From Mytilus galloprovincialis (lineage: Eukaryota > Mollusca > Bivalvia > Mytilida > Mytilidae), in the NCBI RefSeq assembly GCF_965363235.1, contig NC_134845.1, forward strand, positions 13,268,101 through 13,332,100: DNA of 64,000 bases, read 5' to 3'. Both the position numbers and the translations under genes were made by a program. Shown here piece by piece: positions 10,671 to 64,000 of this stretch; the first letter of the stretch is position 1; every line of letters begins with the position of its first letter. The notes beneath the pieces were generated by a model. That model had not been told where the DNA came from. It worked only from the letters and a program-made list of their open reading frames with translations, and did not search any database.

Positions 10671-10837
10671 AAAATCGCCTCAAAGTAAAGTGAAGAAGAT
10701 TAATGCAATAAGACAAATATCCGCGAAAATAACTTAGTTTACTCACGGTGATATAGAACCAAATCGTTTTCATGATACATTTAGCTATACTGATCTACAA
10801 TTTTTAAACCTTTAACTACTTGAATAGTGACGAAATA

Positions 10838-26500: not shown

Positions 26501-26754
26501 ATCCCAACACTTCATTTGTCACTATAGCTGTTGGGGGAAATAACGAGAACAATGAGTATGAAAACTTTCAAAGAACTGACACAAATAGAACAGATGGTGC
26601 CTCCCTAAACATGTATGAGCGCAAGGACAAAACAATCCAAATGATGGCTATTCCACGTGTCAAACAGAACAAAACGGCTACGAAACGGAGACTGAATATG
26701 CTGCCATTGTTGGAGAATATAAAATTTGCTTTTACAAGATTGAACATTAAATGA
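15689..26754 (+). CDS. EGF-like single-pass receptor with tyrosine tail (gene 2)
   Basis: Five exons join without a frame break: 15689-15794, 20877-20923, 23744-23809, 25159-25197 and 26234-26754. Exons 1 and 2 give one 8-cysteine module, C-x11-C-x2-C-x8-C-x3-CC-x5-C-x5-C, resembling the atypical EGF repeats of MEGF10/Draper/SCARF proteins. Exons 3 and 4 are a Thr/Ser/Asp-rich stalk. Exon 5 has a TM segment (TIIITGSIMTLIVICVIMKV) and a tail of about 145 residues with HHYEEIDESF, EYENF and MYERK. YEEI is the classic Src-family SH2 docking consensus. Acceptors are TTTCAG or CTAG, and donors GTATGT or GTAAAA. The N-terminal ectodomain and signal peptide were not found, so the model is probably 5' incomplete. 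The second intron carries a minisatellite and the first a foldback-like element. Ligand unknown; a cell-surface recognition role is inference. Confidence 0.72.
15831..17448. mobile_element. Foldback-like element with about 20-bp tandem-repeat arms
   Basis: The left arm (15831-15962) repeats GCTAAAGTGCGATGG(AGTAC). The right arm (about 17325-17448) repeats the inverse, CCATCGCACTTTAGCGT. The arms face each other across about 1.4 kb, the architecture of foldback transposons with minisatellite termini. The interior holds a full copy of a common bivalve repeat (16075-16682) and about 600 bp of unrecognised sequence. It starts 36 bp after the 15794/15795 splice donor of gene 2 and ends at an (AT)n tract. 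I could not define a target duplication. Confidence 0.6.
16075..16682 (+). repeat. Bivalve repeat R4, copy 1
   Basis: Starts TTAGCTTACCTGGCCCGAAG and ends AGGTGAGCGACACAGGCTCT. Internal blocks AAAGCATTTAGAGCAAA, GGTTGCTGCCCCTGAATTGG and GGTTATTATCTTGAATA are shared with 36868-38795. It is a dispersed family common in bivalves as I recall it; the element class is uncertain. Confidence 0.65.
17451..17517. repeat. (AT)n microsatellite
   Basis: About 33 uninterrupted AT units directly after the right arm of the foldback-like element. Frames through it give meaningless Tyr-Ile repeats. Confidence 0.95.
17895..18062 (+). repeat. Solo Penelope-like 3' tail, copy 4
   Basis: From CCCCCTAGTTTTTTGGTGGG through ACCATGGCGTTGTCAGTTTG to GGTATCTTTCGTCCCTCTTT. 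It is close to the 9094-9330 tail but has no RT sequence upstream, so it is either a severely 5'-truncated insertion or a short non-autonomous derivative. Confidence 0.7.
18063..18939. other. Intron 1 of gene 2, no feature seen
   Basis: AT-rich intronic sequence between the Penelope tail and the next repeat. Nothing recognised. Confidence 0.35.
18940..19160. repeat. Dispersed repeat R5, copy 1
   Basis: Contains AAAACGGAAAGTCCCTTATC, AAAATCAAAAGCTCAAA and GTAGAAAATGGTGGATT. The same blocks occur at 43390-43500 plus 43785-43835, and inverted or partial at 23495-23600 and 47210-47310. Confidence 0.6.
19548..19680 (+). repeat. Mussel repeat R2, internally deleted copy
   Basis: ATACCAGGATAAACATTTTA and ACGCCAGACGCGCGTTTCGT are followed directly by the distal GCCTTAGTTCTTTTC block. 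The CATCAGTGACGC middle part present at 28344 is missing. Confidence 0.65.
19681..20876. other. Intron 1 of gene 2, distal part
   Basis: Mostly featureless. Bases 20675-20785 carry GAGAATGGAAATGACGAATG ... GTCAAAGAGACAACAGCCCG, an inverted fragment of the dispersed family seen at 31616 and 34054. Confidence 0.4.
20924..22149. other. Intron 2 of gene 2, proximal part
   Basis: No exon-like sequence with a conserved phase or cysteine pattern. A 109-codon frame at 21146-21475 has no recognisable motif. Confidence 0.35.
22150..23625. repeat. Complex minisatellite (33-57 bp units)
   Basis: Two interleaved unit types: about 33 bp (GATGGATGTTTTAACGTCTT + ACTTGTCACACGC) and 38-57 bp (TTTCATTTGTCGCATGGAA + CACAATGGATGTTTAAACG, some with AACTTTTCATAGGC). 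Units are homogeneous at 22240-22620 and more diverged after 22640. A dispersed-repeat fragment (GTTGGTGACCTTCTGCTGTT ... GGCACATTCCCCATTTCC, 23150-23240) has inserted into the array. A piece of R5 lies at 23495-23600. Whole array lies in intron 2 of gene 2. Confidence 0.85.
23810..25158. other. Intron 3 of gene 2
   Basis: No repeat or exon recognised. A small palindrome (ATCAGAAATATTTTAATATA... TTTCTGGTATCAGAA) sits near 24288-24328. Confidence 0.4.
25198..26233. other. Intron 4 of gene 2
   Basis: Plain AT-rich intron, no inserted element recognised. Confidence 0.4.
26234..26754 (+). CDS. Terminal TM/cytoplasmic exon of gene 2
   Basis: Opens after TGTTTCAG with TA completing the codon begun by the final G of exon 25159-25197 (Val). 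It is open for 173 codons to TGA at 26752-26754. The N-terminal 35 residues are hydrophobic with a flanking lysine; the remainder is polar, Asn/Asp/Glu-rich. Tyrosine motifs are YEEI near the membrane, then EYENF and MYERK. No kinase, death or TIR domain is visible. Confidence 0.75.
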
Positions 26755-38200: not shown

Positions 38201-41200
38201 TTGTTTATCATGTTTTTCCTAACTTAACAAAATCTTCTCCTCTGAAACGAATGAACCAAATTAAACCAAATTTAAGCTAATTGAATCTTGGGTTATCTAG
38301 AAATAAAGTGTGTGTTTACTGTTTCTTAAAACAAAAACATGGTCGCAATTGCTAAAAATAACGCATACAGTGAAATGCAGTTTTAGTCATCTTTCAAAAA
38401 ATATAATTTAGCATTTAGAGCAAAAAGACAGAAGTTAAGTATTCAATGGGTCAAGGTATACCTACCAATTTCAATCAAATAAAGTCGCCTCACAGGCCTC
38501 CAGATTTTTTGGAAATTAGTGTTCACCCCATGCAAGAACCTGTTTGACCACAACGTAATAATTTCAAGTTTATTACAATTTACACAGTGTGTATATGTTA
38601 AGTATATTCAAAGGAAGATATGTTGCCATAGTTTAGGACTTTAATCATTTTAGGTTGAAAAATACATGCAAAACTAAAATGTTTATGAGGTGTCCAATAT
38701 TTTGACTTTAGTGGAACCTAAATAAGCAAAAATAAAAGAATTAAGCAAAAATAAATGAAAGATTTAAGCAAATAATTACAGGTGAGCGATGAACGCATCG
38801 GAAAAGAAAATTTGTATTTTGTATTTTAAGCTTTAAAATATATAGTTTTTATTACATTTACATGCACACACATAGACATACACATATATCACACACCTCT
38901 TTGTTTTTTTTATTTCCACGACAGTAAGTCGCACTCGATTTGTTTTTACTAATCGATTTAATAAATGCATTAATGTGTTCTTCAAAATGTTTTGATTGTT
39001 TTTTCATCCGATTAAGATAGGATTTTTTTTCATTGTGTACCTCCTTTTTTTATCCTTTTCAGTTACTTTAACGAATTTAACGTAATTCATACATGTACGG
39101 TTATTGAGTAAAAAGTGTAAAAATAACTCCTGAAAGTCATAGTTTGCCTCACTTTTCTTAGGGTACATAATGGTTTTGTTGGGGTTTTTTTTCAAACCGA
39201 AGTGAATGGGGTCTTTTGCATTGTGTTCCTCATTTTCATCTCTGTAATAGAAATATAATTAAATGTTTTAACCGTGTCCACTTTCTTACTGTGTCCATAC
39301 TATTTGTTACCTTATTGTAACGCGATTTCGCGGACATCTTTTGGTTTTACTAATCTAAATACATTGTACTGAACAGTAAATCGAAAAGCGCCATAATCTA
39401 TTCGTTACAAATCAAATGCCTTACACAAATGTGTATGCTTTACATTTATTGTTAGGTTTATTGCGTATCTTGTGAAGATTTTCAAGGGAAACGAATCAGA
39501 CGGACAAAAGGAAAAGCCAGACTCCAGTAATAAAAATACACGGTCCAGTAAAGATGTATTTTAAATCAAAAATCTTTTTTTTTTACTAATTCTTATGAAT
39601 ATGTATCGTTTTTGAAAGCAATACTATAATAAGTATAGCTGATTATCTGATTTATATGTAAAGATAAATTAGCCTAAGAATAAAAAAAATATAAAATTTT
39701 AGTTAATTTTTCTAGAAATGTGACATCTTTTTTATCTTTATTCATGACTTTATATGTGACGCCACCCATCGCCCATTTCGTCTAATTAGAAATATCAAAT
39801 AATCTTTCATCCGATCGTCAGACTAGAGGTTCTAAATATTGCTTGTCGCTTACCTGTCAATACATGTATTTTGTTGTATTAACAACATTAAAGAAAAGAG
39901 TTTAATCCACGTCTAATACATTTTTGTAGCTTCGTTTTGTTATCTTGAATTGGTGTCAATCAAGAGTAATCGCTTTCAAACTTAACTACGAATTTCTGCT
40001 TTAGTGTTCTTTCTTAATGATAATGTCTTGCTGGTAATTTTTTTCTGCCTACATTTTCTCTTTATCCACTATAGTTGTTGCCAAACATATATAAAGGGTA
40101 TTATTATTCGCCATGTAAGGGCAAAAACGTCAATTCCTATGTGGAGAAAGCTGACATTTCTGTAATGCAAAACATGACAAAAAATCACCATCACAAGCAA
40201 TATCTCCTATAAGACGTATATCGACTATCGACTATTTTTGCAATGACGGTTTAATTAATTGTAGATCCAGTCTTGCTGCCTATTTCTGCTAATAACAATT
40301 TTTTCCTTAACCGCCAAATCAAACACTTAGTAAATATCGTCGTTAAAGGACAATGCATTTATTAAAATTGGAGTTGACTTTCTGAAGTGTCTACTAATCA
40401 ATCATCGCTTTAGTGTATAAAACATAATAAAAATGAAAATAATAAGCAGTCACCTGAAAGTTTTGGTGTTGATAAACAGTAGGAACATCTTCATATGGGG
40501 AGCTTGACAATACTGTATTGAATTTGAAACTGAAGTTTCGTTTGATTTTTTTTTTAAGTACTTCGTATGGTAGCTTTCTGATTTACTTCATCAACAGAAA
40601 TAACACTTTAATGTTTTCTTAAATCTTTTAAATGTGTGCCCCGAAACTCATCTGGATTGACATTCATCAGGAAACAAAAACAATCAGTGCTTTTATGTTA
40701 AGTTTTTTTTTCTTTCAGAGTTTAAAAACAAGGAAAGTATTATTTATATCGGCTGTGTGGGTCTTTTGACAATTGTTGTAATAATTTTGTTAACATATAT
40801 CTGTTGCATAAAGACAAGAAAAAAGACAGCATTAGAAAACGCTGAACCAAAGCATGGCCATGCGATTACTTCTGCAGAAAAACACGTGTTACACTGGATG
40901 AGTGGTAAGAATATCATCGGTGAAACTTTGTATGACGAAATTGATGATAATTTCCTATGCGATATTAAAGCAAATGAAGAAAACAAAATGATTGCTGACG
41001 AAAATGATGACAGCACTCAATCAACTAACGATATCAACGACGGGTATATGAATATTTACCAACCAATTATATCAACAGAGGTAGATGTTCATCAATATAG
41101 CTCAACAAAGAACGAAGATGACAATTCAATAACCTCTGATGAAAATCAGAGGGACTCAGGATACCTCCATCCATATCAATCACTCAAATCAAATATTCCA

Positions 41201-41302
41201 GAAGTTAAACATGAGTATACCGGACTAGAAACAAATGGATACCGGTATACTAGGAGTCAACACGACGAGGAGATCATAGTTACAGAATTGGGTGCACAAT
41301 AA
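35214..41302 (+). CDS. EGF-like single-pass receptor with multi-tyrosine tail (gene 3)
   Basis: Three visible exons, perfectly phased: 35214-35319, 36657-36718 and 40719-41302. Exons 1 and 2 encode one module with C-x10-C-x2-C-x8-C-x3-C-x1-C-x5-C-x5-C, including GFYGERCAFDCDCKANERC, matching MEGF/Draper/SCARF atypical EGF repeats. Exon 1 is 106 bp, exactly as in gene 2. The third exon gives a TM segment (IGCVGLLTIVVIILLTYICC), basic stop-transfer residues (KTRKK) and a tail of about 150 residues. Tail motifs are LYDEIDDNF, GYMNIYQPI, PYQSL and EYTGL, several Y-x-x-[IL] (ITAM/ITIM-like), and YMNI fits a Grb2-type Y-x-N. Upstream ectodomain exons and the signal peptide were not found. The 4-kb last intron holds R4 repeats. 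Ligand unknown. Confidence 0.75.
35320..36017. other. Intron 1 of gene 3, proximal
   Basis: A TACATGTAC-rich inverted motif lies near 35340-35375. Otherwise featureless. Confidence 0.35.
36018..36172. repeat. GGATCC-type inverted-repeat element R3, copy 2
   Basis: ATAGGCGGATCCAGGGAGTG at the left is mirrored by AGTTTTGGATCCGCCACTG at the right, with C- and G-rich inner blocks and AATCACTGACGCGAGC in the middle. It is the best-preserved of three copies (6430, 43835). Confidence 0.75.
36868..38795 (+). repeat. Bivalve repeat R4, two head-to-tail copies in intron 2 of gene 3
   Basis: Heads at 36868 (TTAGCTCATCTGGCTGAAAG) and 37655 (TTTTAGCTCAACTTTCCAAA), each followed by CATCACTTG and CCGTCGTCCGTC. 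Within each, modules of about 150-350 bp repeat (AAACCAAATTTAACC/AAACTTGGCCACA; AAAGCATTTAGAGCAAA). The tail is GGTGAGCGATGAACGCATCG near 38782. Related to 16075-16682. The small frames here are not genes. Confidence 0.7.
38796..40718. other. Distal intron 2 of gene 3, no feature seen
   Basis: Non-coding and without recognised repeats apart from the end of R4. A polypyrimidine tract precedes the 40719 acceptor. Confidence 0.4.
40719..41302 (+). CDS. Terminal TM/cytoplasmic exon of gene 3
   Basis: Acceptor TTTCTTTCAG|AG. The AG completes a lysine codon with the A ending exon 36657-36718. It is open for about 194 codons to TAA at 41300-41302. The tail is acidic and Asn/Ser-rich apart from the basic juxtamembrane stretch. 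AATAAA overlaps the stop (41298-41303), the same arrangement as in gene 1. Confidence 0.78.
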
Positions 41303-47000: not shown

Positions 47001-47715
47001 ATGTGTCCAAAGTACACGGATGCCCCACTCGCACTATCATTTTCCATGTTCAATGGACCACGAAATTGTATAAAAAATATAATTAGACATTAAAATTAGA
47101 AAGATAATATCATAGGGAACATGTGTACTAAGTTTCAAGTTGATTGGACTTCAACTTCATCAAAAACTACCTTGACCAAAAACTTTAACCTGAAACATGC
47201 ACTTTCATTTTTGATGCGTTTTGTTATTTGATTTTGCCATGTGATTATGGACTTTCCCAATTGATCTTCCTCTAAGTTCAGTATTTTTGTGATTTTACTT
47301 TTTTCTATGTTCAGTGGACCGTGAAATTGGGGTCAAAAGTTTAATTTGGCTTAAAAATTAGAAAGATTATATCATAAGGAACATGTGTACTAAGTTTCAA
47401 GTTGATTGGACTTCAACTTCATCAAAAACTACCTTGACCAAAAACTTTAACCTGAAACATGCACTTTCATTTTCTATGTTCAGTGGACCGTGAAATTTGG
47501 GTCAAAAGTTTAATTTGGCTTTAAAATTAGAAAGATCATATCATAAGGAACATGTGTACTAAGTTTCAAGTTTTTTGGACTTCAACTTCATCAAAAACTA
47601 CCTTGACCAAAAACTTTAACCTGAAGCGGGACAGACGGACGAACGAACGGACGGACGAACGGACGCACAGACCAGAAAACATAATGCCCTCTACTATCGT
47701 AGGTGGGGCATAAAC
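47001..47715. repeat. Dispersed repeat R8 with three tandem 165-bp units and short inverted ends
   Basis: Units share AACATGTGTACTAAGTTTCA, GGACTTCAACTTCATCAAAA and CTACCTTGACCAAAAACTTT, near 47118, 47378 and 47548. The ends TGCCCCAC (47021-47028) and GTGGGGCA (47703-47710) are inverted. A GGACGGACGAACG run precedes the right end. A fragment of R5 (47210-47310) separates units 1 and 2. Confidence 0.75.
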
Positions 47716-48285: not shown

Positions 48286-51188
48286 TTAATTGTACTTTAC
48301 ACTGTTATGCTTTAACAAGTTTATCACCTCATTGTCCTTTTTCTGAAGAGCAAGTCTAATAGGCGTCATGTTGAACGTGTCACTCACGTTTACTGATGCA
48401 CCATTTTGAAGCAATAATTCGGTAACGTCTTTATGAACTACCGATAAAGACTTGAAAAGAGGGGTTTGTCCTAATTTTTCCACCATATTTACAGATGCCT
48501 TACTTTCAAGTAACTCTTTCGTAAGACAAGCGTTTCCAGCCTGAGCAGTCACATGCAGAGGTGTTATACCATCTTTATCAGATTGATTTACGTTTGCACC
48601 TTCTGCTATTAAAATTTTAACCACTTCTATGTTACTATCTTTGCATGCTAAATACAAAGGCGTCCATCCATCTTTATCCGTTTCGTTTACCTTTGCACCA
48701 CATGATAATAGAATTTTAATGATATCTATTTTGTTATCGCGACATGCAATGTACAGAGGAGTTAAATTCTCTTTTTCCATTTTATTTATATCAGCTCCAT
48801 GCTTTAACAGTATGGGAATCAATTTAAAATGCCCTTGTTCACAACTAATATGGAGAGGGGTTCTCTCATATTTTTCTGTTTCATCAACTGAGACACCATG
48901 CTCACATAATTCTTCCACAATCTTGTCATACCCACCAAAGCAAGCTAGATGAAGGGGAGTTATTGATTCTTTGTCTTTAGCACAGGCATCTGCTCCGTTT
49001 AACAGCAGGAGGGAAACTGCTTTATGTAGACCGCGTGTACATGCCAGATGTAGTGGAGTCTTTTCATATATGTTTGTGCAGTTAACATTTGCCTTATATT
49101 CTAACAACATCTTGATGATATTAAGATGACCATTACCACAAGCACAATGAAGTGGTGTATTCCCGTATTTAGTAATTAGAGAAGCTTCTGCATTTTGTTC
49201 CAATAACATTTTAACAACAAGCTCACGGCCTTTTCTACAAGCCCAATGAAGTGGGGTAGAGTCTTGTGAGTCACGTAGATTTATGTCAACGTTGTTCGAA
49301 AGTAGCAGTTGAGTTATCTCAATGCAACCTACTTCACAACTGCAATGTATTGGACGCTTACCGTCGTCGTTTTCTATCAAAGTTTCAGCATTATTTTTTA
49401 AAAGCAGCTGAGCAACCATGATCTGCTTCTTCTCACAAGCTAGATATATCGCAGTTCTTCCTTTAAAGTCGGAAAGATCCACATCACAATCATATTGAAT
49501 TAAAAGTTCAACAATCTTAACGTGTCCTTTCAATGTGGCTAAATGTAATGGAGTGTGTTTAGCGTTGTCTCTTACATTAACCTTTGCATTCCTATGCAAT
49601 AACATTTTAGCTATGCTTATATTTCCTTTACTACAAACAATATGAAATGCCGTTTTTAGATCTTTTTTTCGTTGTCTTATTGTAGCTCTCTTTAACAAAA
49701 GAACAGCTACTGTATCAGTATGATCACCAGCGCAGGCTAAATCTAAAGGTGTATTTTCATTTTTATCCGTTTTGTCAATAAATGCTCCTTTCTCAAGTAA
49801 TAACTCTGCTGTATGACTATGTCCCTTGAGACAAGCCAAATGCAACGGAATTTGACAAGATTTATTTTCTTTGTTAACCAATGAATGGTCAAAGTGTAAG
49901 AAATATGTAAGGTAGTCGTCATAACCTTCTACGGATACAGCATGCGCAATTGTTGAACCATCATCAGAGTTCTTTAAGTCATTCCGTTTTAACATTGTTT
50001 TAATATACGAAATAAACGCTTCTCTGAATTGCGGAAAGGCATTATGCGTATCCGTTATTACATCCCAGAACAACCCTTGTTTGATATCAATTAAAATTCG
50101 GTCAAAGTATGCTTTTTCTAAAACAGGTGGAATCATAATTGTCATTGTTGGATGATGTCCTTTCAGAGACAGAAACTTAACCCTATCCTTTAAAAACGAC
50201 GTTTTACCATATTTCAGTAAACTTCGTAGGATATGTTGACTCAAGATATGTGCAATTACATTGAAAAATGTTACGTTCATAAAGGAATATCCATCTTCCG
50301 TTTCCATGCAATAAGATCCAACTAAGGCATTTAGACAAAATAGTATTGATTGTTTTGATGGCGTTTGGGAACATCCAATTTCATTTGCCAAAAAATGGAT
50401 AACTTCATTATATTTTTTATCTCGACTCTGATAACTATTATCCAGGATAAGTTCTTTTTTTAAATTATTATTAAAAATCGCCAATAGTGCTAATGAAAAG
50501 TAATTCCAATCTTTTGTTTTATTGCATTTTTCGATGTCTGCGGCCACATACATATATGGTGTTGTAAAATATTCTACGACATTTTCTGTTGTCTCGGATG
50601 TATAATCTGAGCACAGTGTAGGAAAAAAGCTATATTTCATTATTACTTCACTGCCTAATTGGTCCATTAAATCTGTACTTAGATATGATTTCCCAATTGT
50701 CCGTCGATTGTTTTCAGTTAGCTTCAAGTCTTTTCCGAGAAGGTTGTGATGCACAAAAGCCCTCTTCACTGTTACACTATCAACCGAATTATATATATAA
50801 GACCTACAAGTTGCTAATATCTTAAAATCCTTAATTCTATCTAGAAGCTTAAGAACCAAATTAACTTGCTTACTCCACCACATAGTATCATACTCATGTA
50901 CACTATACTTTCCAAATATATCGTCAATTATAAATATCTGTTTCTTATCTTTAGATGCATATCTGATAATGTCATCTGGATTTGTAACAGTAAATAGTTC
51001 GAATTCTTTGGTTTCCTCTAGAGTTAACGCGATGTGAAATGCTAGGGACGACTTTCCACATCCTTGTGGTCCAGACACCAGGATACACTGATCTTTCTTC
51101 ATACTCTCTAATATTATTTTGGATGCCTCTGTTTCAACAAATCGATACAGACGTTCTTTCCACTGCTTCTTTTCATAATTCTGTAGTT
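48286..51188 (-). CDS. STAND NTPase-ankyrin exon of a membrane receptor (last exon, gene 4)
   Basis: One long exon, from the acceptor TATGTTTTAG|AACTACAG at 51188 to TAA at 48286-48288. The frame is open upstream of the first Met (51102), with a W-K-E-R...F-V-E-T segment typical just before STAND P-loops, so that Met is not the start. Counting from it: Walker A GPQGCGKS (11-18), Walker B QIFIIDDIFG (55-64) and sensor-like KILATCR (94-100). The DDIFG pattern resembles the nSTAND3-type NTPases widespread in molluscs (recalled, not searched). A helical region follows to about residue 395. Then come about 16 ankyrin repeats (TPLHLAC-type, 33 residues each) to the C-terminus, with a degenerate one before them. 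Likely role: nucleotide-dependent signalling switch with an ankyrin interaction surface. Intact, no frameshift. Confidence 0.9.
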
Positions 51189-51735
51189 CTAAAACATATA
51201 ATGATATTCACTTTAAAAAGTAATTATATCACGGTTTTTTTCAAAATAATTTTTGACACCAAAATATCCTATAAGCTGTTTTGCTTTTGGAATAAAATAT
51301 TATTGTCATAAAACTTTTTTCAGGAAAGGAATAGGTATGTCACAAATTTTCGTAAAATTTTCATGTACTTTGATCTCGTTGTTTTTATTACTAAAATAGA
51401 AAAGTGTTCATTTATATTTCATTTATTTTTAAAGTTTGTTTAAGAAATGTAAATGTAACATTTATCTAAAAAGCACTATATCTCGATTAAAAATGTTCAT
51501 ATTTCATACATTTTTCTTAAAAATTAGTTGTTGTTAATGATTTTTCTGTTATAATGATGTAAAGGTCATACTGTAAATGACTACGTGTTGATGTAGGCAT
51601 CAAGTTACATCGTTGGTAGTGCAAATTTGTTTTGTAGAATTATAATGTTTTAGAATTTGACACTTCATTAAGAGTGAAACTTAGTATGATATTCAGAACA
51701 GTTTCATGTGGACACTTTTTCATTTTAACTAAAAA
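51189..51735. other. Intron of gene 4 (proximal)
   Basis: AT-rich; the plus frame 51039-51311 is a shadow crossing the exon boundary. Confidence 0.4.
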
Positions 51736-52755
51736 TGCACTTTAAGAATCACTCTGATTCAAACAAAAATATCTGTGAAACTGACATTTTCAAGATACTT
51801 GAATTCTTGATTGACAACATATAAATGACGTTTGAAGGAAATGTTTTTCAACAGAATGCCTGCTTTCCAATGGAAACACATAGTGCCTCTCTTCTTGCCG
51901 ACTCGTTTCTTTATCATTATGAGGCTGACTTCATAGAGGAAATTCTTAGGAAGAAAGATAAGAAATTAGCAATATCCTTTAACTTTACTTTCCGCTGATA
52001 ATTTATAGATGATGTTCTCTTACTGAATTATTCAAAATTTGTTGCTTATGTTGAACGCATCTCTCTCGTCAAACTACAGATAAAGGATACAACAGATACT
52101 GTTAAGTCGGTCTTATATCTTGACTTACATCTAGAAATTGACAATGATGTTCAGTTGAAAATAAAACGTTTCGAACAGCGGAATACTACTGTTGCCTTTA
52201 TTTGTTAAAAGAGATGATTTAAGCTTCCAAATTGTGAATACTCAATTTCTAAGTAGCAACATTCCAGCAACTCCTGCATACTTAGTATATATCTTCCAAT
52301 TGATACGATATTCCCGTGCCTGTATTTCCTATAATGATTTCCTTGACACAAGGAAGCCATCAAACCAAGAATTCCAAATGGTGAAGTTAAAATCATCCCT
52401 TCGTAATTTACGCCATCACGAGTTGGTTGATCGTTCAGGAATAACCGTTTCACAGATGTTATCCAATATATTTTTTACGTCGTAATTGCAATCCCCCGTT
52501 TATTTTCGTGAATGTTGCCTACCGAATAAGACTATTTCCCGGGTGTGTAAACACATGAGTAACACGACGGGTTCCAAGATTGGAGCAGCACCTGAGATCA
52601 CCCCCAGTTTTTGATGGGATTCTAGTTGCTTAGTCTTTAGTTTTTATGTTGTGTCTTGTGAATTAATATTTGTCTGTTTGGTTTTTTTCTATTTTTTGCC
52701 ATGGCGTTGTCAGTTTATTTTCGATTAACGAGTCCCTTTGGTATCTTTTGACCCT
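51736..52755 (+). mobile_element. Penelope-like RT remnant with 3' tail, in an intron of gene 4
   Basis: From AAGAATCACTCTGATTCAAA, the DNA parallels the intact element from its middle to its 3' end: the motif B region, YIDD region (Y replaced by a stop: CGCTGATAATTTATAGATGA), YLDLHLEID, and C-terminus SNIPATPAYLVYIFQLIRYS. At least two frameshifts; stop near 52485. Then the 3' tail CCTGAGATCACCCCCAGTTT to GTATCTTTTGACCCTCTTTT. Dead and 5'-truncated, opposite in orientation to the host gene. Confidence 0.75.
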
Positions 52756-53554
52756 CTTTTAAGTCACCAGAAAACGTTTTTGAATGTCTGAAAGGTTTCA
52801 AAATTGTAATTAAAAGTTCCCATAAAATTACTTATCTATGTAATGACCTAAGAATTTATACTGACAGAAATACGTAATGCCTACACATTTTATTCCAAGT
52901 TGATGACTTATAGCGTTTTGATGGCCATTGTCTTAAAAAACGTAAATTAAATTACCTGAAGCTCCTATAGACATAAACAAAAATACACAAGTTATACTGA
53001 AAGTCATACTGAAGAAGATCACACAAGAACATTTTGTAAAATCAAAACTTTAGTTTTCAGTATGGGCAAATAATACTACATTTGTAATGCGCCTCAATTA
53101 TAGGTACTCATATTTAACGTGTTTACACAAAGCTACATGCAGCCATATTAGGTACAATGTATGTTGCTTTAAATAGTAAAGGACTATTTATTTTATACTA
53201 ATTCTACGGAGTTATAAACTTTTCACAAAGTACTGAATTTCTAGAGAATTAAGCTCTTGTTTAAAAATACAGATGTTTCACCTCGGGAAACGTAATGACA
53301 AAGTTTTTTATGTTGCTTTTTATATAACTGAGCATTACCATTTATTTCGTACTGATTGAGTGTGAATTCTATGGAATTATTAAGGTTTTAAATTACCGAA
53401 TTTCTTGAAGAGGTTTTGTGTAAAAGTAGGAATGTTTCTCTTCGTTAACCTGTATTATAGACGACAACAGCTGCCAAGTGATTGTAGTATATTTTTTCAG
53501 ACAAACTCGTACAATGTGAGATTAGCAAAGTCTATTTTGTAAAGTATGTCTTAC
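52756..53554. other. Intron of gene 4 (52756-53554)
   Basis: No recognisable element. Confidence 0.4.
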
Positions 53555-53650
53555 CTTTGATGTTTTCTGGTATTGGATTATCTAGCCTATTCTTCAATTC
53601 TATGTTTTCACGCATAATATCTTCAAATTTTATATGTCCATTTACGCTGC
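53555..53650 (-). CDS. Gene 4 linker exon (coiled, charged)
   Basis: Acceptor TCCATTTTAG|GCAGC and donor AAAG|GTAAGA on the minus strand. It is 96 bp, encoding SVNGHIKFEDIMRENIELKN and RLDNPIPENIK, rich in Glu/Lys/Asn and probably a juxtamembrane helix. The final G plus AA of the next exon makes Glu, keeping the frame into the NTPase exon. The opening GC completes a codon with the G ending exon 55272-55313. Confidence 0.72.
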
Positions 53651-55271
53651 CTAAAATGGAAAAGGTAATGTGAAACTTCAAATTAATGCATCGTATTTAT
53701 AAAGTGGAGGGTACTCCATTTAACCTTTACAAAGTATTTTTTGAGTAATTAGAAACCAAAAGAAACATTGCCTATTTATTCAAAGAAAAATATATGCTCT
53801 ATCTCATTAAAGCTATTAGGTTAAATAAAATTAATCAAATACAGGGGTTCTTTTTTTATACAATAAATCAAAACTACAACACGAGTCTGTCAAAGTGAAA
53901 TAAAACCTGATTTTCTTGCAGATGTCGAACCCTGAGCAGCTGAGTAGGTATTGATACATCAGTGTAGCATAAAACAGCTCTGAATTTGGATTGTGATGAT
54001 TTCAATTTATAATCAAATATAATTAATAGTTCTCATATTTTTTTCTTTTATTTGTCACAAACTAATATAGATCTTCAACTTTTCTAGCTGTCACAAACTT
54101 TATCTGCACAATGTAATGTATTGAATATATCCTTTAATAAAAAGAAATTGTTTTTTTCTAATAAAAAAGATAATTCCATTTAAGGAATGACAGAAAAAAT
54201 ATATTGTCTGTCTATGAAGAAATAACATAAAAAATTGGTGCACACTCGATAACGCGCGTAGCGGTTTATTTAGCAGTGTGCACCACATTTTACATGTTAT
54301 TACGAATGGACAGAAAAAATATTACAGTCATTTCTTATAATTAAATTCTAAATTCCATTTTGAACCGTAGAAAACCATGATAACACATTGATTAAAACGT
54401 CACGGTCACATGACTAAATTATGTCTATGGGCTGATAACAAAATAACATCAGCCAATCAGAAGACGCGTTACATCCAAAATTAAATTCTCTCTGGATCCA
54501 AAAACAGGATCAAGTAAAAATTACACATTAGCATACAAAAAAGATAAAATACCACGTAACATCTGTAACATCTACCTTCAAAACATACTTGACATAAAAT
54601 AATAGTTATAAAGAAATTTCTGTAAACTCCTGAATAACCAGTTAAACAGATATAAATTAATCATTAATATACTATCTATACAAGAAGTAATTCATTTCTG
54701 TTCAAAAGGCAATAACTCAATCAATAATAAGTATAACTTTTTCATTTCTTATAGGGTTCAATATTTAAAAAAAGGGGAAAAGCTTAAAATTGTGAAAATT
54801 GTACTTGTACGTCATTATTCAAATGAAACAGCATATCAAAATGCGTCAAAGCGTGTTCATGTTAATGAACGGACACTGTCGTGACGCCTCCCCACCGCCT
54901 ACACGACCGCCGTGAATCTCCAAATCAATAACTGACTTTTTTTTCGAAAATCCAGTTAAAAACGGATTTTTTTTAATGAAGTACTTGAGTCCTTCACGAC
55001 GGTAAAAATTAAAGATGAAGATTTAAATTTTTCATAATAAAACTTATTGTTGGCAGAGATATATTCGTTTAAACCATAACAATGATCTATAAAGAAAATT
55101 TCCAAAAGCTTTTGACACAGGATGTGATTTCAACATACAATTTAAAGTTTAAAAATATTGGTTGAAGACGTTTGTTCCTCTGCAATTGACTAGTATTATA
55201 ATTTGTTTTTACTCTAAGAATTTTAGAATTATAGTAAATCATATATTCCTATTTCTTGCTAACAAACTTAC
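53651..55271. other. Intron of gene 4 with one inverted-repeat element
   Basis: At about 54206-54318, arms built of TAACATAAAAAATTGGTGCA and its approximate inverse (TGCACCACATTTTACATGTT) enclose CGATAACGCGCGTAGCGGTT; the CACAC / GTGTG ends of the arms match exactly. A probable MITE. The rest is plain intron. Confidence 0.5.
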
Positions 55272-55313
55272 CATTCGGTGACCTGTCCAGAATGAGCACA
55301 CTCATCATAAAAG
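55272..55313 (-). CDS. Gene 4 exon: end of TM segment
   Basis: 42 bp between TTATTTGCAG and GTAAGTTT on the minus strand. CT completes Ala with the preceding exon, then FMMSVLILDRSPN follows, the cytoplasmic half of a hydrophobic helix and its polar exit. Length and phases (2+39+1) fit both neighbours exactly. Confidence 0.65.
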
Positions 55314-55540
55314 CTGCAAATAAGACATATCAAAAAGCTAGTACTTGTAAATCATGTTATCAAAGTTAAGTGTTTTTCAAATGTATCTTATAAGACGACG
55401 TCAGCAAAGTCACTGGCTAGTTAATTAAATAATTTTAGCATCCTTTCAAAATTCGCATTGATAATTTATAATATACTGTTTGTATCTTATTATTTAGGAG
55501 TTGGTAGTTGAATATAAATCAGTACTATTCAAGAAATAAA

Positions 55541-55652
55541 ACAAACAGTTCACATAACATTACAAACAGTTCACATAACATTACAAACAGTTCACATAAC
55601 ATTACAAACAGTTCACATAACATTACAAACAGTTCACATAACATTACACACA
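55541..55652. repeat. 21-bp tandem repeat, about 5 copies
   Basis: ACAAACAGTTCACATAACAT plus T, five nearly perfect copies, then CACACAGTT. It sits about 230 bp upstream (in transcription order) of exon 55272-55313. Because 21 is a multiple of 3 it creates an artificial open frame. Confidence 0.95.
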
Positions 55653-57051
55653 GTTATAGACATATGATTCAGAAAGAATATCAAATGAAATGTTCAAGGG
55701 TAACATGCATAACACTGTTAAATAATTTCATTACTGCATACTCAGTTTGAACTGTATACAGTACTGCTGATTTTTTTTTTACGAAAGTTGACTTTTAGCC
55801 CATGTTTTATCCGCTTTATAAAACTGTTAGATAAGCTAGAATACTATAAGAAAACCAAACATATATTTATACAAATTTCCTTTGTTGGATACTTTAGTAA
55901 GACGAACAACTTACATTTGTTGCTAAGGTTTTCACAAAATAACCAATTGACTTGAACGCTCGACAAAAGAGAAAAACATTTTTTTTTGTTATATCAATCT
56001 CTTATGCTAGTTTTAAACACGTGTTCAAATTGAAAGTAGCTTATTTAAATTGTGCAAAAAACACTGCGATCGCAATTCCTTTTGAATTGTTCAAGCACTT
56101 CAAAATGTTTAGCTGGTGTAATATACCGCCTATTAACATAGTTATAACGGATACATGTCATACCAGTTATGATTTAAGTCATAATTATGAGGAATTAAAA
56201 GAAAGGCTTTTAAAAATAGAGGGTTTAATGAGACTATATTGCTCACCTAGAACTATGTACATATTCAACGGGGACAATTATTCATCATCTTAGATGAAAG
56301 TGTAATGTATGACATTTTTCAGTGTTTCTGTTTTTGTACAGCTGACAACATTTTTTTCTTCTTTTTTACCTATCTATTAAAGTTTTTGCTATTCGATAAA
56401 AATCTTCCTTTAAGGGCAATTACTCATATAAGTCATAATTATAAGACGATACGACTTATTTGTAGATATCGATTTGTCTTAAAAAAGATCTTTACCTATT
56501 ACAGTTTTCATCGAATTTGTAAAATGGGTAAACATCATTTAAGGAGAAAAAAACATTTCCGCTATTTGACAAATTTGTGGACATTTTCATCATGATCATT
56601 TGATCGGTGTGCAGTTTTATTTATCTTCTATATTTCTGGCCAAAAATTCAAAAGGTAAAAATTTGCTACATGTATATGGCGATTTTGAGAGTAACTATAT
56701 TGCAGGTTCACAATGATTGAATAAAAACGATACTTTAGGCAAATGAAAACCCAAATATCGTAAAAATGCACATCTTTTATATGTGTAAAAACATCCAGCA
56801 TAATGTGACTAGCTTAAAACTACATGCGGTGTTATCCGAACAGATGATGTATTCCACATATTTGAGTAAACAGTAGAAACATCATGTTTGTTAATGTACA
56901 GCTGTAACTAAAATAGTATACTGTTGAGCTTGAACAGTATTGTCAGTTATCACATAATTTTTTCTATGATTCATAAGATTTAATTATTCACAGAATGAAC
57001 ATTAAAAGCAGAAATAAAAATATTAAGAAAATATAAAGAAACATACAAAGT
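55653..57051. other. Intron of gene 4, no gene seen
   Basis: Two plus frames (55952-56293, 113 codons; 56305-56595) show no family motif. The block AAGGGCAATTACTCATATAA ... ACTTATTTGTAGATATCGAT at 56412-56476 resembles the inner part of R4. Confidence 0.4.
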
Positions 57052-57096
57052 TACGGAGCCCTGTTGGTCTCACACATATTACAAAGTGTCTTTAAA

Positions 57097-58770
57097 AGTC
57101 CTGCGCTGAAGATGTGGAAAGTCTAGCGTTGGATATGTAAAGTCTAGCGCAAGAGATGTAAAGTATAGCGCTGTAGATGTAAAGTCTAGCGCTAGAGATC
57201 TAAAGTCTAGCACTAGAGATGTAAAGTCAAGCGCTGGAGATGTAAAGTCTAGCGCTGAAGATGTAAAGTCTAGTGCTGAAGATGTTAAATCAAACGCTGG
57301 AGATGTAAAGTCTGGCGCTGAAGATGTAAAGTCAAGCGCTGGAGATGTTAAATCAAGCGCCGGAGATGTACAGTCTAGCGCTGGAGGTGTAAATTCAAGC
57401 ACTGGAGATGGCGCTGGAGATGTAAAATCAAGCGCTGGAGATGTAAAATCAAGCGCTGGAGATGTAAAGTCCAGTGCTGAAGATGTAAAGTTTAGCGCTG
57501 AAGATATAAGGTGTAGCACTGAAGATGTAAAGTCAAGCGCTGAAGGGGCAAAGTCCTGCGCTGGAGATGTAAAGTCGAATGTTGAAGATGTAAAGTCTAG
57601 CGCTGGGGATGTAAAGTCGAGCGCTGAAGATGTTAAGTCTGGCGCTGAAGATATAAAGACAAGCGCTGGAGATGTAAAGTCAAGCGCTGGAGATGTAAAG
57701 TCTAACGCTGGATATGTAAAGTCCAGCGCTGGAGATCTAAAGTCAAGCACTGGAGATGTAAAATCAAGCGCTGGAGATGTAAAGCCTAGCGCTGGAGATG
57801 AAAAGTCTAACGCTGAAAATTTAAAGTTTAGCAGTGGAGATGTAAAGTCAAGCGCTGGAAATGTAAAGTCTAGCGCTGAAGATGTAAAATCAAGCGCTGA
57901 AGATGTAAAGTCTGGCGCTGATGATTTAAAGTCAAGCGCTGAAGATGTTAAATCAAGCGCCGATGATGTCAAGTCTAGCGCTGGAGATGTAAAGTCAAGC
58001 GCTGGAGATGGCGATGGAGATGTAAAATCAAGCGCTGGAGGTGTAAAGTCCTGCGCTGGAGATGTAAAGTCAAGTGTTGAAGATGTAAAGTCTAGCTCTT
58101 GGGATGTAAAGTCAAGCGCCGGAGATGTAAAGTCTAGCGCTTGAGATGTAAAGTCAAGCGCTTGAGATGGCGCTGGAGATGTATAATCAAACGCTGTACA
58201 TGTAAAGTCCAGCGCTGAAGATGTTAAGTATAGCGCTAAAGATATAAAGCGTAGCACTGAAGATGTAAATTCTAGCGCTGAAGATGTATAGTCCTGCGCT
58301 GGAGATGTAAAGTCAAGTGTTGAAGATGTAAAGTCTAGTGCTGGGAATGTAAAGTCAAGCGCTGAAGATGTAAGTCTAGCGCTGGAGATGTAAAGTCCAG
58401 CGCTGGAGACCTAAGGTCAAGCACTGGAGATGTAAAGTCAAGCGCTGGAGATGTAAAGTCAAGCGATGGAGATGTAAAGTCTAGCGCTAGAAATGTAAAG
58501 TCCAGCGCTGGAGATCTAAAGTCAAGCGTTGGCGATGTTAAGTCAACCACTGGAGATGAAAAGTCTAGCGCTGAAGATGTAAAGTCAAGCGCTGGAGATG
58601 TAAAGTCAAGCGCTGGAGAAGTAAAGTCAAGCGCTGGAGATGTAAAGTCAAGCGCTGGAGATGTAAAGTCTAGCGCTGAAGATATAAAGTTTAGCACTGA
58701 ATATGTTAAGTCAAGCGCTGGAGATGTAAAGTCCTGCGCTGGAAGTGTAAAGTCAAGTGTTGAAGATTTA
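57097..58770. repeat. Left 21-bp array of the foldback-like element
   Basis: Units of AGCGCTGGAGATGTAAAGTC plus T/A, about 80 copies with point changes, a few short indels and occasional GGCGCTGGAGATG joints. The two long minus-strand frames through it (57079-58257, 58335-58799; ALDFTSP heptads) stay open because the period is divisible by three. Not treated as genes. Confidence 0.92.
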
Positions 58771-58785
58771 AAAACCAGGACTGCA

Positions 58786-58859
58786 GGGTACCGTTTCACT
58801 GAAGGTCGTAAGAGTTACAGCCAGTCGTTACTCTTCCGACCTTCAGTGAAATAGTACCC
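58786..58859. repeat. Hairpin at the inner edge of the left array
   Basis: GGGTACCGTTTCACTGAAGG continuing to TAAGAGTTAC pairs with GTTACTCTTCCGACC... AGTACCC: a 33-bp stem with about 4 mismatches and a loop of about 8 bases (AGCCAGTC). Confidence 0.8.
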
Positions 58860-59490
58860 AGTGCTTCAAAGTTATCAAGATGCATATTTCCTACAAAAAT
58901 TTATTTTTAAAACTCATCTTTGAATTCACTTCAGCTATTATTATACTGTGACCTATATATAAATTTATCCAAGTTTGATAAACCAGAAGCTCTAGAGTCT
59001 TTAATCGTTCACCTGATTTTTAAATGAACTTACTGGTATTTTCTACATAAAACTATATTACGGATTACAAATGTATCGAGGTTTGTGATTGGATAATAAC
59101 ACAGAGATGTCAGTATATATTCGAGAAACTGCCGGGGTATATACGACGTTTTTATCCCCAATTGGAACCTCAAAAACGTCATCATAACACCGGTTACTAT
59201 GTGACGTAGTCAAAAGCTATGGGACTGTCAGAGGCTCACAAAGGGAAAATAATAACGTGCTTCAGTCAATAATACATTTTTAATACAAAATCACGCAATT
59301 TACAATTTTAATACTTAAATTTAATGTTAAAAGTGTTATTATAAATTATTACATACACGATAAAATTATTTTCACAGCAAATTAGAAAATCCTTCACGTA
59401 TGCCGAACATTTTCATCATACATGTGTTGTCAACAAATACTTGCACTGGAAAATAATATTAAGTCAGGGGTAATCCGTAATATATGTGTA
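58860..59490. other. Element interior, inverted ACGGATTAC motifs
   Basis: ATATTACGGATTAC (59050) and GTAATCCGTAATAT (59470) are inverted, so 59050-59483 may be a nested inverted-repeat insertion. No coding potential. Confidence 0.45.
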
Positions 59491-59621
59491 ATTCAGGTCT
59501 CAGACAGGGTATATACTGTGACATTCCCGGCTAAGGTCTTATATCCCCTTCGCCTTCGGCTCAGGGGATATAAACTCTAAGCCGGGAATGTCACAGTATA
59601 TACCCTGTCTGAGACCTGAAT
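59491..59621. repeat. Near-perfect 131-bp palindrome
   Basis: ATTCAGGTCTCAGACAGGGT at the left and the inverse ACCCTGTCTGAGACCTGAAT at the right, with GACATTCCCGGCT and GGTCTTATATCCCC in the arms and a central CTTCGCCTTCGGCTC. It would form a long cruciform. Confidence 0.85.
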
Positions 59622-59999
59622 AACATATAATGTTTGGCTGCGGAAGCTATCATTAATTTTTTTTAAATTGGCACCACAATCATAAAATTTTCTTTGTAAT
59701 GAGTCAGTACAGATTGCAAAGTTTGAACAAAATAAATTGTGTGTTTTGGCAAATTTGTTTGACGGTTTTGTTTAACTTGAATCTCAGGGGTGCATCATAG
59801 CCTGTGACGCTAATCCTGTAACCCTATCCTGTGCCACAAACAGAAACAAACTGGCGTTTCTACGCAAAAAAACGATATTTTTTGGTTATTTTAGAAGGCA
59901 CTTATAAATTTTGTGTTGGAAAACTAGGTAGGGGGTGCTTATAGTGGCAGGGGTGCTTAATACGAGAAATACGGTACATGTGTTCGAGAAAACGAGAGT

Positions 60000-61985
60000 C
60001 GACGACTGTATTTTCAAGGTTTAAACTCTAGGCCTTGTAGTTTCAGAGGACAAGAATTTAGTTTTATTTCTACCAATCAGAAGAAAGAATTTCCCATGGC
60101 GACCATTTTTGAAATCAAATCGACATAAAATGAGGAAGCGTTGTATAGGACCTCCCATACACCATTCCCACCAAGCTACAGTTTAATCGGAATTGTAGTT
60201 TCAAAGGAAAACATTTTTTGATTTTGACCATTCAGAAACAGGTACTGCCCATGGTCACGGTAATTGTGGCTATGTTTGAGGTTGAATCAACACGAAATCT
60301 TTGTACAGGACTTTCATACATCATTTCTACCATTTTAGTTACAGTTACTAAATATACTTTGACAGGAAATGATTTTAAATTTCGAAAAAAAAATTGCCCA
60401 TGACATTATTGGCTGTCATGTTTGATTGCAGAAAAATGTGAAATCATAGTTCATGCCTACCAAGTTACAATTCAATATGCCTTGTAGTTTCAAAGGGGAA
60501 ACAAGGTTTATTCGACAAATCAGAAACAAATATTGCCGGTTGTGGCCATGATTGAAAATCAATCGGCACAAACGAGGAATCTGTTTAAAGGACCCTCCAT
60601 ATACATTCCTACAAAATTTAGTTTCAATTGAACAAGCAATTTTGAAGTAGAAGATTAAAAATGTGAATTTTTTACAGACGGAGGATAGACTGACAACAAA
60701 TGACGGATGCCAAGTGATGGCAAAAACACAATGTTAAACTAATTTCCGCCAAGGTGGCCGTCAAAACATTGTGGAGGACCATCATAGGTTCATTCATGTA
60801 TAATGTTGATTCAAGTGTAGCCGTTTCTGAGGGAAAAAACTGTTAAGATTTTTTTGGAATAGTGTCCAATGTTAAAATGTGTACCGCTCCGACGACCGTT
60901 TTGGAATTTTCGGATTGACACAAAAATCTTACAAATTGGTGAAGGACCATCATAGGATCATTCATACATAATACCAGTTCGATCTTTGTTATGGTAATTG
61001 GTATCTGAGAGGAAGCTGTTTACATAATTCTCGTAATGGTCCAATGCTAAATTATGTTCCCGCCATAACAGACATTCTGGATGTTGGATAGATGCCAAAA
61101 ACATATTTTCCATGAAGAACCAATATCTCATCATTCATGCATAATATCAATTCATTGCTAAAAAAGGCATCGGAAAAAAACTTGTTTATTATATGTATTT
61201 CCAATAGGATTCTATGTTAAGCTATGTCTCGTGGTGGCGGCCATCTTAGAAATTGGCCGAGGTCAACGAACACAAGTTGGGTTTCAATTGACCCAGTGGT
61301 TTCAGAGGAGAAGATTTTTTATATTGTTTTCTTTAAATTTTCTATTATTAGTAACGTGGCGGCCATGTTTGAAAGATGTTGGGGTCATCAACCAAAATTC
61401 TTAAAGGTAAGTGTATCATTAACCCCAATTTTGGTAGCAATTAATCCATTAAATGATTTTATAGATTTTTTTATTGATTTTTATTTTGATTGTACCCCTT
61501 TATTTTTTTTATAGCCATGTCGGCCATCTTGGATGACAGACTGGAACATCGGATACAATTTTTAAAGTAGACACCCTAAGAATGATAATGGCCAAGTTTG
61601 GTTCTAATTGGACCAGTGGTTTCAGTGGAAAAGATCTTTATTTATTTTTTTATTTTTTGGGGTCAACTTTTCTATTCTTAGTTATGGTGGCGGCCATGTT
61701 TGAAAGCAGTTTGGGTCATCAACCAAAATTTTAAAGGTAATCATAAGTGCATCATTTACCCCAATTTTAGGAGCAATTGGTCCATTAAAATATTTTATAG
61801 AATTTGTTTTATTGATTTAAACCCTATGTTCTATTGATAGCCACGGCGGCCATGTTGGATGACAGGTCGGAACATCAGATACAATTTTGAAAGTGGACAC
61901 CTTAAGGATGATTATGGCCAAGTTTGTTTCTAACTAGTCGAGTGGTTTCAGAGGAGAAGATCTTTGAATTTTTTATATATTTTAT
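60000..61985. repeat. Diverged tandem modules in the element interior
   Basis: Modules of about 160 bp with GTAGTTTCARAGGA and CCATTCAGAAA/CCATGGYSAC phrases (60037-60560), about 170-bp modules with GGACCATCATAGGWTCATTC (60776-61150), and about 320-bp modules with GGTTTCAGAGGAGAAGATYTT and GTGGCGGCCATGTTTGAAAG at 61300, 61618 and 61945. Frames inside are incidental. Confidence 0.7.
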
Positions 61986-61989
61986 ATAC

Positions 61990-62415
61990 TTTACATCCCC
62001 AGCGCTTGATTTTACATCTCCAGCGCACGACTTTACATCTTCAGCGCCGGACTTTACATCTCCATCGCTTTGTTTAACTTCTTCAGTGCTAGACTTAATA
62101 TCTCCAGCGCTTGATTTCACATCTTCAGCGCTTGACTTTACATCTCCAACATTAGACTTTGCATATTTCCAGCGCTAGATTTTACACATTTCCAGCGCTA
62201 GACTTTACATCTTGTGCGCTTGACTTTACATCTCCAGCGCTAGCCTTTAGATCTTCAGCGCTGGACTTTACATCTCCATCGCTGGACTTTACATCTCCAG
62301 CGCTAGACATTACATCTTCAGCGCTGGACTTTACATCTCCAGCGCTAGACATCACATCTCTAGCGCTAGACTTTACATCTCCAGCGCTAGACTTTACACA
62401 TCGTCAGCGCAGGAC
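61990..62415. repeat. Right 21-bp array of the foldback-like element
   Basis: About 20 units of CCAGCGCTAGACTTTACATC plus T, the inverse of the left array, ending at GCGCAGGACTTTAAAAGACA, the mirror of the left terminus. Confidence 0.92.
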
Positions 62416-62467
62416 TTTAAAAGACACTTTATAATCTGTGTGAGACCAACAGGGGTCCGTTCAAAGT

Positions 62468-63473
62468 CCTTCAAAACCTCTATTTTTATTTTTACCCTGC
62501 TGTTCTGGGTTATTTTAAAAGGTGATATTCACTTAAATCGTGTCAGATTTTTTTTGCGACATGAAAAACACATTATTTTTAAAAGTACATTTCGACTGAA
62601 GTGTCGAATTTCACATATAAGTGCTCTTAATTGGCAATGTGGAACAACAATTTTATTTTGGCATGTCAATTTCGATTTGTACGAGTGCACCCCATGGGTT
62701 TTAAGAAAATCATGTTTTCTTTGCCGATCGTTTACATCACGTGGGGATCAAACTTTCTTGATATTGACTTAATATATGCAAATACAAGCAAATACAAACA
62801 TGACAGTTGCATATTGGACTATAAACAACATCGTAAATTTGCCTCCACATGTAGTGAAGCAGAACCGGCAGTGATAAATTGTAAACTATACAAGATGCAG
62901 TTGAACATAAACAATTAGAAATTAATTAATCTATCCAACTTAACACAATAAACAATGAATCTATACCAAATCATCAATTTCTCAAAGTGCTTTGAAGTTT
63001 AACAATAGTTGTCTTTCTTGGAATAGTGAGAAAAAGCGGTTAATTTAAAATGAAAATAGCTTTTGATAGTTAATAGGCTACACATAAGAAAATTGATATG
63101 TTGTTTGGAAGATTCCATATTCTCTGTTATGCTAAATGGTTTACTACAAATAGCCTATTCACAGCAGATATATGCTCTAGCATCCAGCATATTTCCAATA
63201 CTTATAAAGTGAGAAAAACATTTTATTAGGGTATAAATGACATTAATAGAAGGCTTTAACAATTATGGTTGAACATATGTGAATTTTTACTCAAAATGTG
63301 TCACATTACCAAATATTAAGCATATTGGAAACATAGTGTAAATCACTTTGTCTTCATATTGCATGATTCTAAGGTGGACCCATACTTAATATATGGAACT
63401 AAATAAGGGTTGTGATTCTTAGGGTTTACGAACATAAACTGTACGGATGTATAGATATGGTATAAAGATATAA
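62468..63473. other. Intron of gene 4, no feature seen
   Basis: AT-rich, no repeat recognised. Frames 62440-62772 and 62631-62918 have no motif. Confidence 0.4.
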
Positions 63474-63668
63474 GAAAAAGTGGTATGAGTACCAATAAGG
63501 CAACTCGCTATCCAAGTCACAATATAAAAGTACACCATTATAGGTCAAAGTACCGTCTTCAACACGGAACATTGGCTAACATGGAACACCAAGCTATAAA
63601 GGGCCCCAAAAATACTACTGTAAAAAAATCAAACGGGAAAACCACTGGTCTTATCTATAAAATAAAAT
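63474..63668 (-). repeat. Dispersed repeat R6, partial diverged copy
   Basis: AAAAGTGGTATGAGTACCAA, AAGTACACCATTATAGGTCA and CCACTGGTCTTATCTATAAA parallel the start of 27820-28100 with many changes. The small plus frame here is not a gene. Confidence 0.55.
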
Positions 63669-63809
63669 AAATGAATGGTATGTATTTATAGTTTGTTTAA
63701 ATTTGAAAACATTGTACATGTTTCTTCCAAAACTAAGTAACATTGTGGTTCCGTCTTGTCGTTTATTATGTTTTAAGAATAAACATAACTGCATAATATA
63801 TATATTTAC

Positions 63810-63881
63810 CTATTGCGGACGAAATCGCAGCCACAACTAGTACAGAAAAGATCGTTTTATGTTCAATTGACGAACTGTGTG
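63810..63881 (-). CDS. Gene 4 exon: start of TM segment
   Basis: 72 bp between TCTTTTCAG and GTAAATAT on the minus strand. It encodes HSSSIEHKTIFSVLVVAAIS then SAI. Joined to exon 55272-55313 it gives an uninterrupted hydrophobic run of about 24 residues, preceded by a polar His/Ser/Lys stretch. The exon opens with two bases completing a codon, the same phase as the TM exons of genes 1-3. The ectodomain and signal peptide must lie beyond base 64000. Confidence 0.65.
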
Positions 63882-64000
63882 CTGAAAAGAGAATAATGTG
63901 CGTGTTATAATTCACTTAGTCTTCAACACTTTTACTTAGCTTGCTACTATGTTCGCAATCATTTATTCCTTTGATTTCATTAAATATAATGTGTTTTCTT
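63882..64000. other. Start of the next gene-4 intron
   Basis: Sequence beyond the TM exon acceptor; polypyrimidine on the minus strand. Upstream exons are outside the window. Confidence 0.4.

Follow-up and report, generated by a model that had tools for sequence, protein, structure and literature searches.

A stretch of 64,000 nucleotides from the mussel Mytilus galloprovincialis (C8:13268101-13332100, hereafter the window; positions above 64000 are extended window coordinates) carries the last four exons of a nine-exon minus-strand gene. Its product is predicted to combine, in order, a signal peptide, a 16-cysteine ectodomain, one transmembrane helix, a linker, an nSTAND3 nucleoside triphosphatase (NTPase), a helical region, and 16 ankyrin repeats. 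STAND switches are commonly pictured as cytosolic sensors. We favor, with moderate confidence, the reading that this protein is an outside-in type I single-pass receptor with an NTPase switch, for which a role in defense is the likeliest.

Gene structure and close paralogues

A sequence-only reading of the window had joined four exons into a membrane-anchored STAND NTPase with about 16 ankyrin repeats, and that join stands: it has three GT-AG junctions, an AG acceptor on the first exon, and a frame open to the stop codon. Its first exon, at 63810, proved to be exon 6 of nine, with five exons upstream beyond the window. The same reading had proposed extending the sequence past base 64000 to find an ectodomain, and in the 40 kb from C8:13332001, where exons 1-5 were located by tblastn with close homologues and their borders set from splice sites, a 16-cysteine ectodomain was found. 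In the complete model all eight introns are GT-AG with agreeing phases, and the 1256-amino-acid product has no internal stop (Table 1). Exon 7 matches the deposited protein P0008 weakly but co-linearly in tblastn, exon 8 is 94% identical to the linker of P0005, and exon 9 is 73-75% identical over its entire length to three deposited Mytilus proteins.

Hydrophobic peaks of at least 1.4 occur at only two places in the product: residues 7-25, called as the signal peptide, and residues 233-251, called as the transmembrane helix. The helix, formed across the exons at 63810-63881 and 55272-55313, has a Kyte-Doolittle mean of 2.59 over 19 residues. The signal peptide and topology were called from hydrophobicity and the order of parts. 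The predicted receptor would lie at the cell surface in type I topology and couple its outer part to its inner one.

Three close tandem copies, the window gene among them, stand on the minus strand at 13.32, 13.41, and 13.51 Mb; two others, more distant, lie at 13.01 and 13.10 Mb on the same strand. The window gene's close M. galloprovincialis relatives LOC143085123 (P0002, with a last exon 100% identical to C8:13505036-13507939) and LOC143085125 (P0005, whose last-exon protein is found letter for letter at C8:13406700-13409800) lie ~190 and ~90 kb away on the same strand, have the same order of parts, and are 75-76% identical over residues 1-480; they are separate, uncharacterized paralogues. 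LOC143085123 covers residues 1-480 of the four-exon join completely (100%) at 76% identity, which argues that the join is not due to chance. No protein identical to the window gene product is among 11 deposited matches. The same domain order is seen in the deposited Mytilus proteins P0002, P0004, P0005, and P0008, and deposited proteins of M. edulis and M. californianus share the whole architecture.

Intron 6 holds two mutually inverted arrays of a 21-bp minisatellite, at 57095-58772 (~81 copies, leaving long open frames on both strands) and 61988-62398 (~19 copies). Just downstream of the gene, at 47301-47625, a 169-bp unit is present in nearly two tandem copies with 96% matches.

Linkage of ectodomain and NTPase across loci

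We pooled 54 distinct nSTAND3 loci, a lower bound drawn from the best 22 of 682 nSTAND3 candidates and the best 37 of 1751 candidates for P0002, and counted a locus as lacking an upstream exon when none of 150 scored ectodomain exons lay within 50 kb on the same strand. An ectodomain exon within this distance upstream on the same strand was found at 13 of the 14 nSTAND3 loci on contig C8 versus 0 of 40 on other contigs. At the C8 loci the upstream exon was on the opposite strand in 0 of 14 cases, and a downstream exon occurred in 3 of 14, as expected from neighboring genes; when the C8 exons were rotated 2000 times, the mean count was 0.11 and the highest 3. The two parts have diverged together: pairwise ectodomain distances correlate with pairwise NTPase distances across the 13 loci (Mantel r 0.72, p 1e-4), and so they do when the comparison is confined to the eight loci between 47 and 54 Mb (r 0.61, p 0.008). 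The nine-exon model, the deposited proteins of the same order, and these 13 co-linear loci bear out the proposed joining of an ectodomain, membrane span, STAND-type NTPase, and ankyrins in one gene.

In a 21-row tree of NTPases all 13 membrane loci fall on one side of a branch (100/99); L008 (short) and L021 and L023 (the same loci as L004 and L006) were left out of the trees. A single gain of the receptor part without loss was considered, and the tree widened to 34 rows does not show it.

The ectodomain and its family

Between the signal peptide and the helix lie 16 cysteines and one N-glycosylation motif. The 16 cysteines are invariant in 14 aligned members of the ectodomain family, and 16/16 are present in the window gene. 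Pfam gave no family above cut-off in residues 1-323, nor in three paralogue ectodomains; a sequence search of PDB with the ectodomain gave nothing credible (best E-value 0.99, a dienelactone hydrolase), and an AlphaFold2 model of it, with a mean predicted local distance difference test (pLDDT) score of 46, showed no usable fold. On cysteine spacing, a TNF-receptor-like fold may be considered.

The genome contains at least 150 copies of the main ectodomain exon, of which 55 are on C8 and some carry stop codons; this count, the best 150 of 207 candidates scored, is a lower bound. Two protein searches, which require shared 5-residue words, together gave 40 distinct database proteins with the ectodomain (the union of 19 and 27 matches, excluding P0003 and P0006, whose only matches are near the helix and linker), all labelled Mytilus (five species) and several with a partial ectodomain only. 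By Pfam label, the tails behind it are nSTAND3 in 16, Roc in nine, immunoglobulin (Ig) without a Roc label in six, NB-ARC, DZIP3-type HEPN, and kinesin in two each, and fn3 in one, with no clear label in two (P0020 and P0022). Of seven NB-ARC loci found in the genome, the two closest to P0046 have an ectodomain exon on the same strand ~19 and 62 kb upstream, one of the two with an internal stop. The four HEPN matches fall at three sites on C11, each 12-14 kb downstream of an ectodomain exon.

In two M. californianus proteins from different contigs (P0021 and P0038) the ectodomain is annotated before a kinesin motor, either a real fusion or repeated wrong joins. Joining errors are possible in some of the other deposited models too, but most of all in these two.

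NTPase, helical region, and ankyrin array

The proposed P-loop NTPase was recovered as nSTAND3 with both Walker motifs intact. Across 18 aligned sequences the P-loop G, G, K, and S and the first Walker B D are invariant, the second D is conserved in at least 90%, and so are three residues further upstream, W9, T19, and A21. In Pfam, NACHT (17 bits versus 26.7) and NB-ARC (13.7 bits versus 23.5) fall below cut-off in the product, and no leucine-rich repeat family is among 25/28 Pfam families listed, the C-terminal half matching ankyrin families. An AlphaFold2 model of the NTPase and helical region has a mean pLDDT of 88.2. Alignments of Dark and RPP1 to the NTPase model run past the nucleotide-binding fold, and part of the helical region seems to align with the helices and winged helix known from other STAND proteins. 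A motif scan of the ankyrin array finds 15 repeats at 33-residue spacing and one gap of 66 residues; since the gap has room for one more repeat, the earlier estimate of about 16 was right.

Selective constraint

Ratios of nonsynonymous to synonymous substitution (dN/dS), computed by the Nei-Gojobori method with our own script, are given here in the order window gene-P0002, window gene-P0005, and P0002-P0005. They are 0.20, 0.22, and 0.29 for the ectodomain exon; 0.34, 0.25, and 0.49 for the NTPase; 0.53, 0.54, and 0.43 for the middle region; and 0.33, 0.35, and 0.48 for the ankyrins. Values below 1 wherever the ratio is defined are the pattern of maintained genes. In the pair P0002-P0005 the C-terminal half of the ankyrins has zero synonymous differences over 270 codons, leaving the ratio undefined there. 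At the corresponding loci, L029 (C8:13505000-13508000) and L030 (C8:13406700-13409800), the ectodomain exon has a dS of 0.58, unlike the ankyrin half, and recent sequence exchange (gene conversion) is a possible source of the synonymously identical halves.

Interpretation

In the mechanism that we propose, the ectodomain would bind a ligand or a neighboring receptor outside the cell and so gather copies of the protein; the clustered NTPase modules would then exchange nucleotide and oligomerize under the membrane, and the ankyrin array would recruit a downstream partner. Other STAND proteins oligomerize in the cytosol. We infer the immune role, the ligand, and the direction of signaling. Defense seems the likeliest use for two reasons: the family has expanded widely through tandem duplication, and its ectodomain also precedes other modules with links to immunity and cell death (NB-ARC, DZIP3-type HEPN, and Roc GTPase). 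The presence of the ectodomain on such unrelated tails argues for outside-in signaling, and the sea cucumber Ig-TM-NACHT receptor described in phagocytosis (PMC13133943) is a further point in favor. More tentatively, and with slightly less than even confidence, we suggest a plug-and-play system in Mytilus in which one ectodomain and a membrane helix are combined with several NTPase or effector tails (nSTAND3-ankyrin, NB-ARC, Ig-Roc, and DZIP3-type HEPN), outside-in use of STAND proteins being the rule.

Several observations weigh against the outside-in receptor. When 13 loci without a detected ectodomain are added to the NTPase tree (34 rows, which cover 21 of the 41 loci lacking a detected upstream exon), L043, L044, and L049 fall among the membrane loci and one clean split is kept in only 8% of bootstrap trees, so that gains and losses of the receptor part are not exactly countable; no ectodomain match lies within 10 kb upstream of L043 or of L049. 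Of the exons tested, that of the ectodomain is under the strongest constraint (dN/dS 0.20-0.29). There is also no case for a diversifying ankyrin binding face. Over seven sequences and 15 repeats, entropy peaks at repeat positions 23, 15, 16, and 24, then 12, 33, and 31, and is not concentrated at positions 1, 3, 11, 12, 31, and 33, which we take to be the contact positions; these are somewhat variable (mean entropy 0.68 versus 0.51 over all 33) but not the most variable. Neither the constrained ectodomain nor ankyrins that vary off the presumed contact face resemble a fast-evolving pathogen sensor, and the ectodomain, being so constrained, may well face a ligand that is itself conserved and not the shifting surface of a pathogen. 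Finally, the sensor proposed for the bacterial nSTAND3 protein Avs5 is its C-terminal repeats, which in that report are suggested to recognize phage ligands (PMC12931631).

This last point makes an inside-first sensor the main rival. Here the ankyrins would sense a cytosolic ligand, and NTPase oligomerization would cluster or perturb the N-terminal membrane part as the effector. An N-terminal part, NTPase, and C-terminal repeats follow one another in the order of sensors such as Avs5 (PMC12931631), and a more constrained ectodomain exon than ankyrins fits as well. The occurrence of the ectodomain before unrelated tails (Roc GTPase, HEPN) suggests instead a shared input, and the ankyrin variability is not where a sensing face would be expected from our assumed contacts; we consider this alternative unlikely, though still worth weighing. 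A membrane scaffold or adhesion protein, in which ankyrins and ectodomain hold partners and the NTPase is structural or minor, has a precedent in Kidins220/ARMS, a membrane protein with ankyrins that is described as a scaffold; the Walker A and B residues kept in 18 aligned sequences and the several NTPase types behind the same ectodomain make it improbable. Least probable are separate transcripts, with a cytosolic NTPase-ankyrin protein made from its own promoter and the upstream exons belonging to another receptor, for although P0003 and P0010 are deposited with starts after the helix and just before the NTPase, and L043 and L049 show no ectodomain within 10 kb upstream, a start at the Met at 51102 (which the sequence-only reading had named as the result that would count against it) lies ten residues before the P-loop and drops W9, T19, and A21, the upstream exons are in frame with conserved phases, linker, and helix, and ectodomain and NTPase diverge together.

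If the outside-in receptor is real, it would provide a tractable animal case of an outside signal driving a STAND NTPase directly and would account for part of the large uncharacterized receptor repertoire of mussels; if the plug-and-play arrangement is also real, one kind of outside signal would be wired to many inner immune outputs. The genome contains nSTAND3 relatives of both sorts, with an ectodomain detected and with none detected, which makes it possible to test what the receptor part adds.

Other features of the window

Table 1. Exons and domains of the nine-exon gene, in window coordinates
Feature	Position	Strand	Remarks
Exon 1	73521-73571	-	beyond base 64000; GT-AG, in phase
Exon 2	71551-71728	-	beyond base 64000; GT-AG, in phase
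Exon 3	70207-70509	-	beyond base 64000; GT-AG, in phase
Exon 4	68834-68900	-	beyond base 64000; GT-AG, in phase
Exon 5	64105-64163	-	beyond base 64000; GT-AG, in phase
Exon 6: stalk and first half of transmembrane helix	63810..63881	-	AG/GT borders; phase 1 in and out
Exon 7: second half of transmembrane helix	55272..55313	-	AG/GT borders, in phase
Exon 8: charged cytoplasmic linker	53555..53650	-	AG/GT borders, in phase
Exon 9: NTPase, helical region, ankyrin array, stop codon	48286..51188	-	
nSTAND3 NTPase (PF20720)	50680..51141	-	E-value 2.6e-26, 92.6 bits, cut-off 27.2
Walker A	51046-51072	-	
Walker B	50920-50937	-	
Helical region between NTPase and ankyrins	49855..50679	-	
Array of 16 ankyrin repeats	48289..49854	-	Pfam ankyrin families, Ank_2 E-value 9.6e-116; 33-residue register

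Elsewhere in the window, two open frames on the plus strand (26209-26754 and 40661-41302) each encode a hydrophobic helix and a tail with YEEI/YDEI-like tyrosine motifs; their Pfam matches (SCIMP, Mid2) are weak and below cut-off, and the two are possibly paralogous single-pass receptors. A reverse-transcriptase-like frame on the minus strand (9396-10679; RVT_1 E-value 2.6e-6, 27.7 bits versus a cut-off of 29.6) is one that we take, from its appearance, to be Penelope-like.

Comparison with known systems

KAP NTPases such as Kidins220/ARMS have several helices within the NTPase and N-terminal ankyrins, unlike the mussel protein, with one helix N-terminal to the NTPase and C-terminal ankyrins. 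Bacterial Avs5 likewise has nSTAND3 (PF20720) followed by C-terminal repeats, but as described it begins with a Sir2 effector and its repeats are TPR and Sel1-like, the word 'ankyrin' being absent from the main text of that report (PMC12931631).

Among invertebrates, the oyster Crassostrea virginica is reported to have ~50 proteins with a cysteine-rich ectodomain, a transmembrane helix, DED, TRADD-N, and variable tails (PMC8195603). These resemble the mussel family as a bivalve expansion with a constant cysteine-rich ectodomain, one transmembrane helix, and tails that include STAND NTPases and ankyrins, and differ in the DED and TRADD-N described between helix and tail (PMC8195603); the likeness of the two cysteine-rich domains is one of description. 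At Pfam sensitivity, DED and TRADD-N are absent from residues 1-323 at E-values up to 10, and neither has a listed Pfam match in P0002, P0005, or P0008. The sea cucumber protein AjNLRC4, with an extracellular Ig, a transmembrane helix, and an inner NACHT, is described as a membrane receptor in Vibrio phagocytosis (PMC13133943). It shares with the mussel protein an ectodomain, transmembrane helix, and intracellular STAND-type NTPase and differs, by that description, in having Ig and NACHT where the mussel gene has an unnamed cysteine-rich ectodomain, nSTAND3, and ankyrins (PMC13133943); a Pfam search of residues 1-323 finds no Ig family. Sea anemone and sponge NLRs share a STAND-type NTPase and predicted transmembrane helices, while an ectodomain of the mussel kind is not described in the available parts of those reports (PMC5094078; PMC12909245), and the sea anemone NLRs have three to five N-terminal helices as reported versus one in the mussel protein (PMC5094078). 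The pearl oyster is reported to have more than 200 NACHT genes (PMC9646362).

Because reports of membrane STAND proteins exist for other invertebrates, the mussel gene is less novel than the sequence-only reading implied. Among the open-access papers listed, none describes, by title and the start of the abstract, this ectodomain, the nSTAND3-ankyrin form, or the spread over NB-ARC, Roc, and HEPN tails. The principle is known from other animals, and on those listings these three features would be what the mussel system adds to it.

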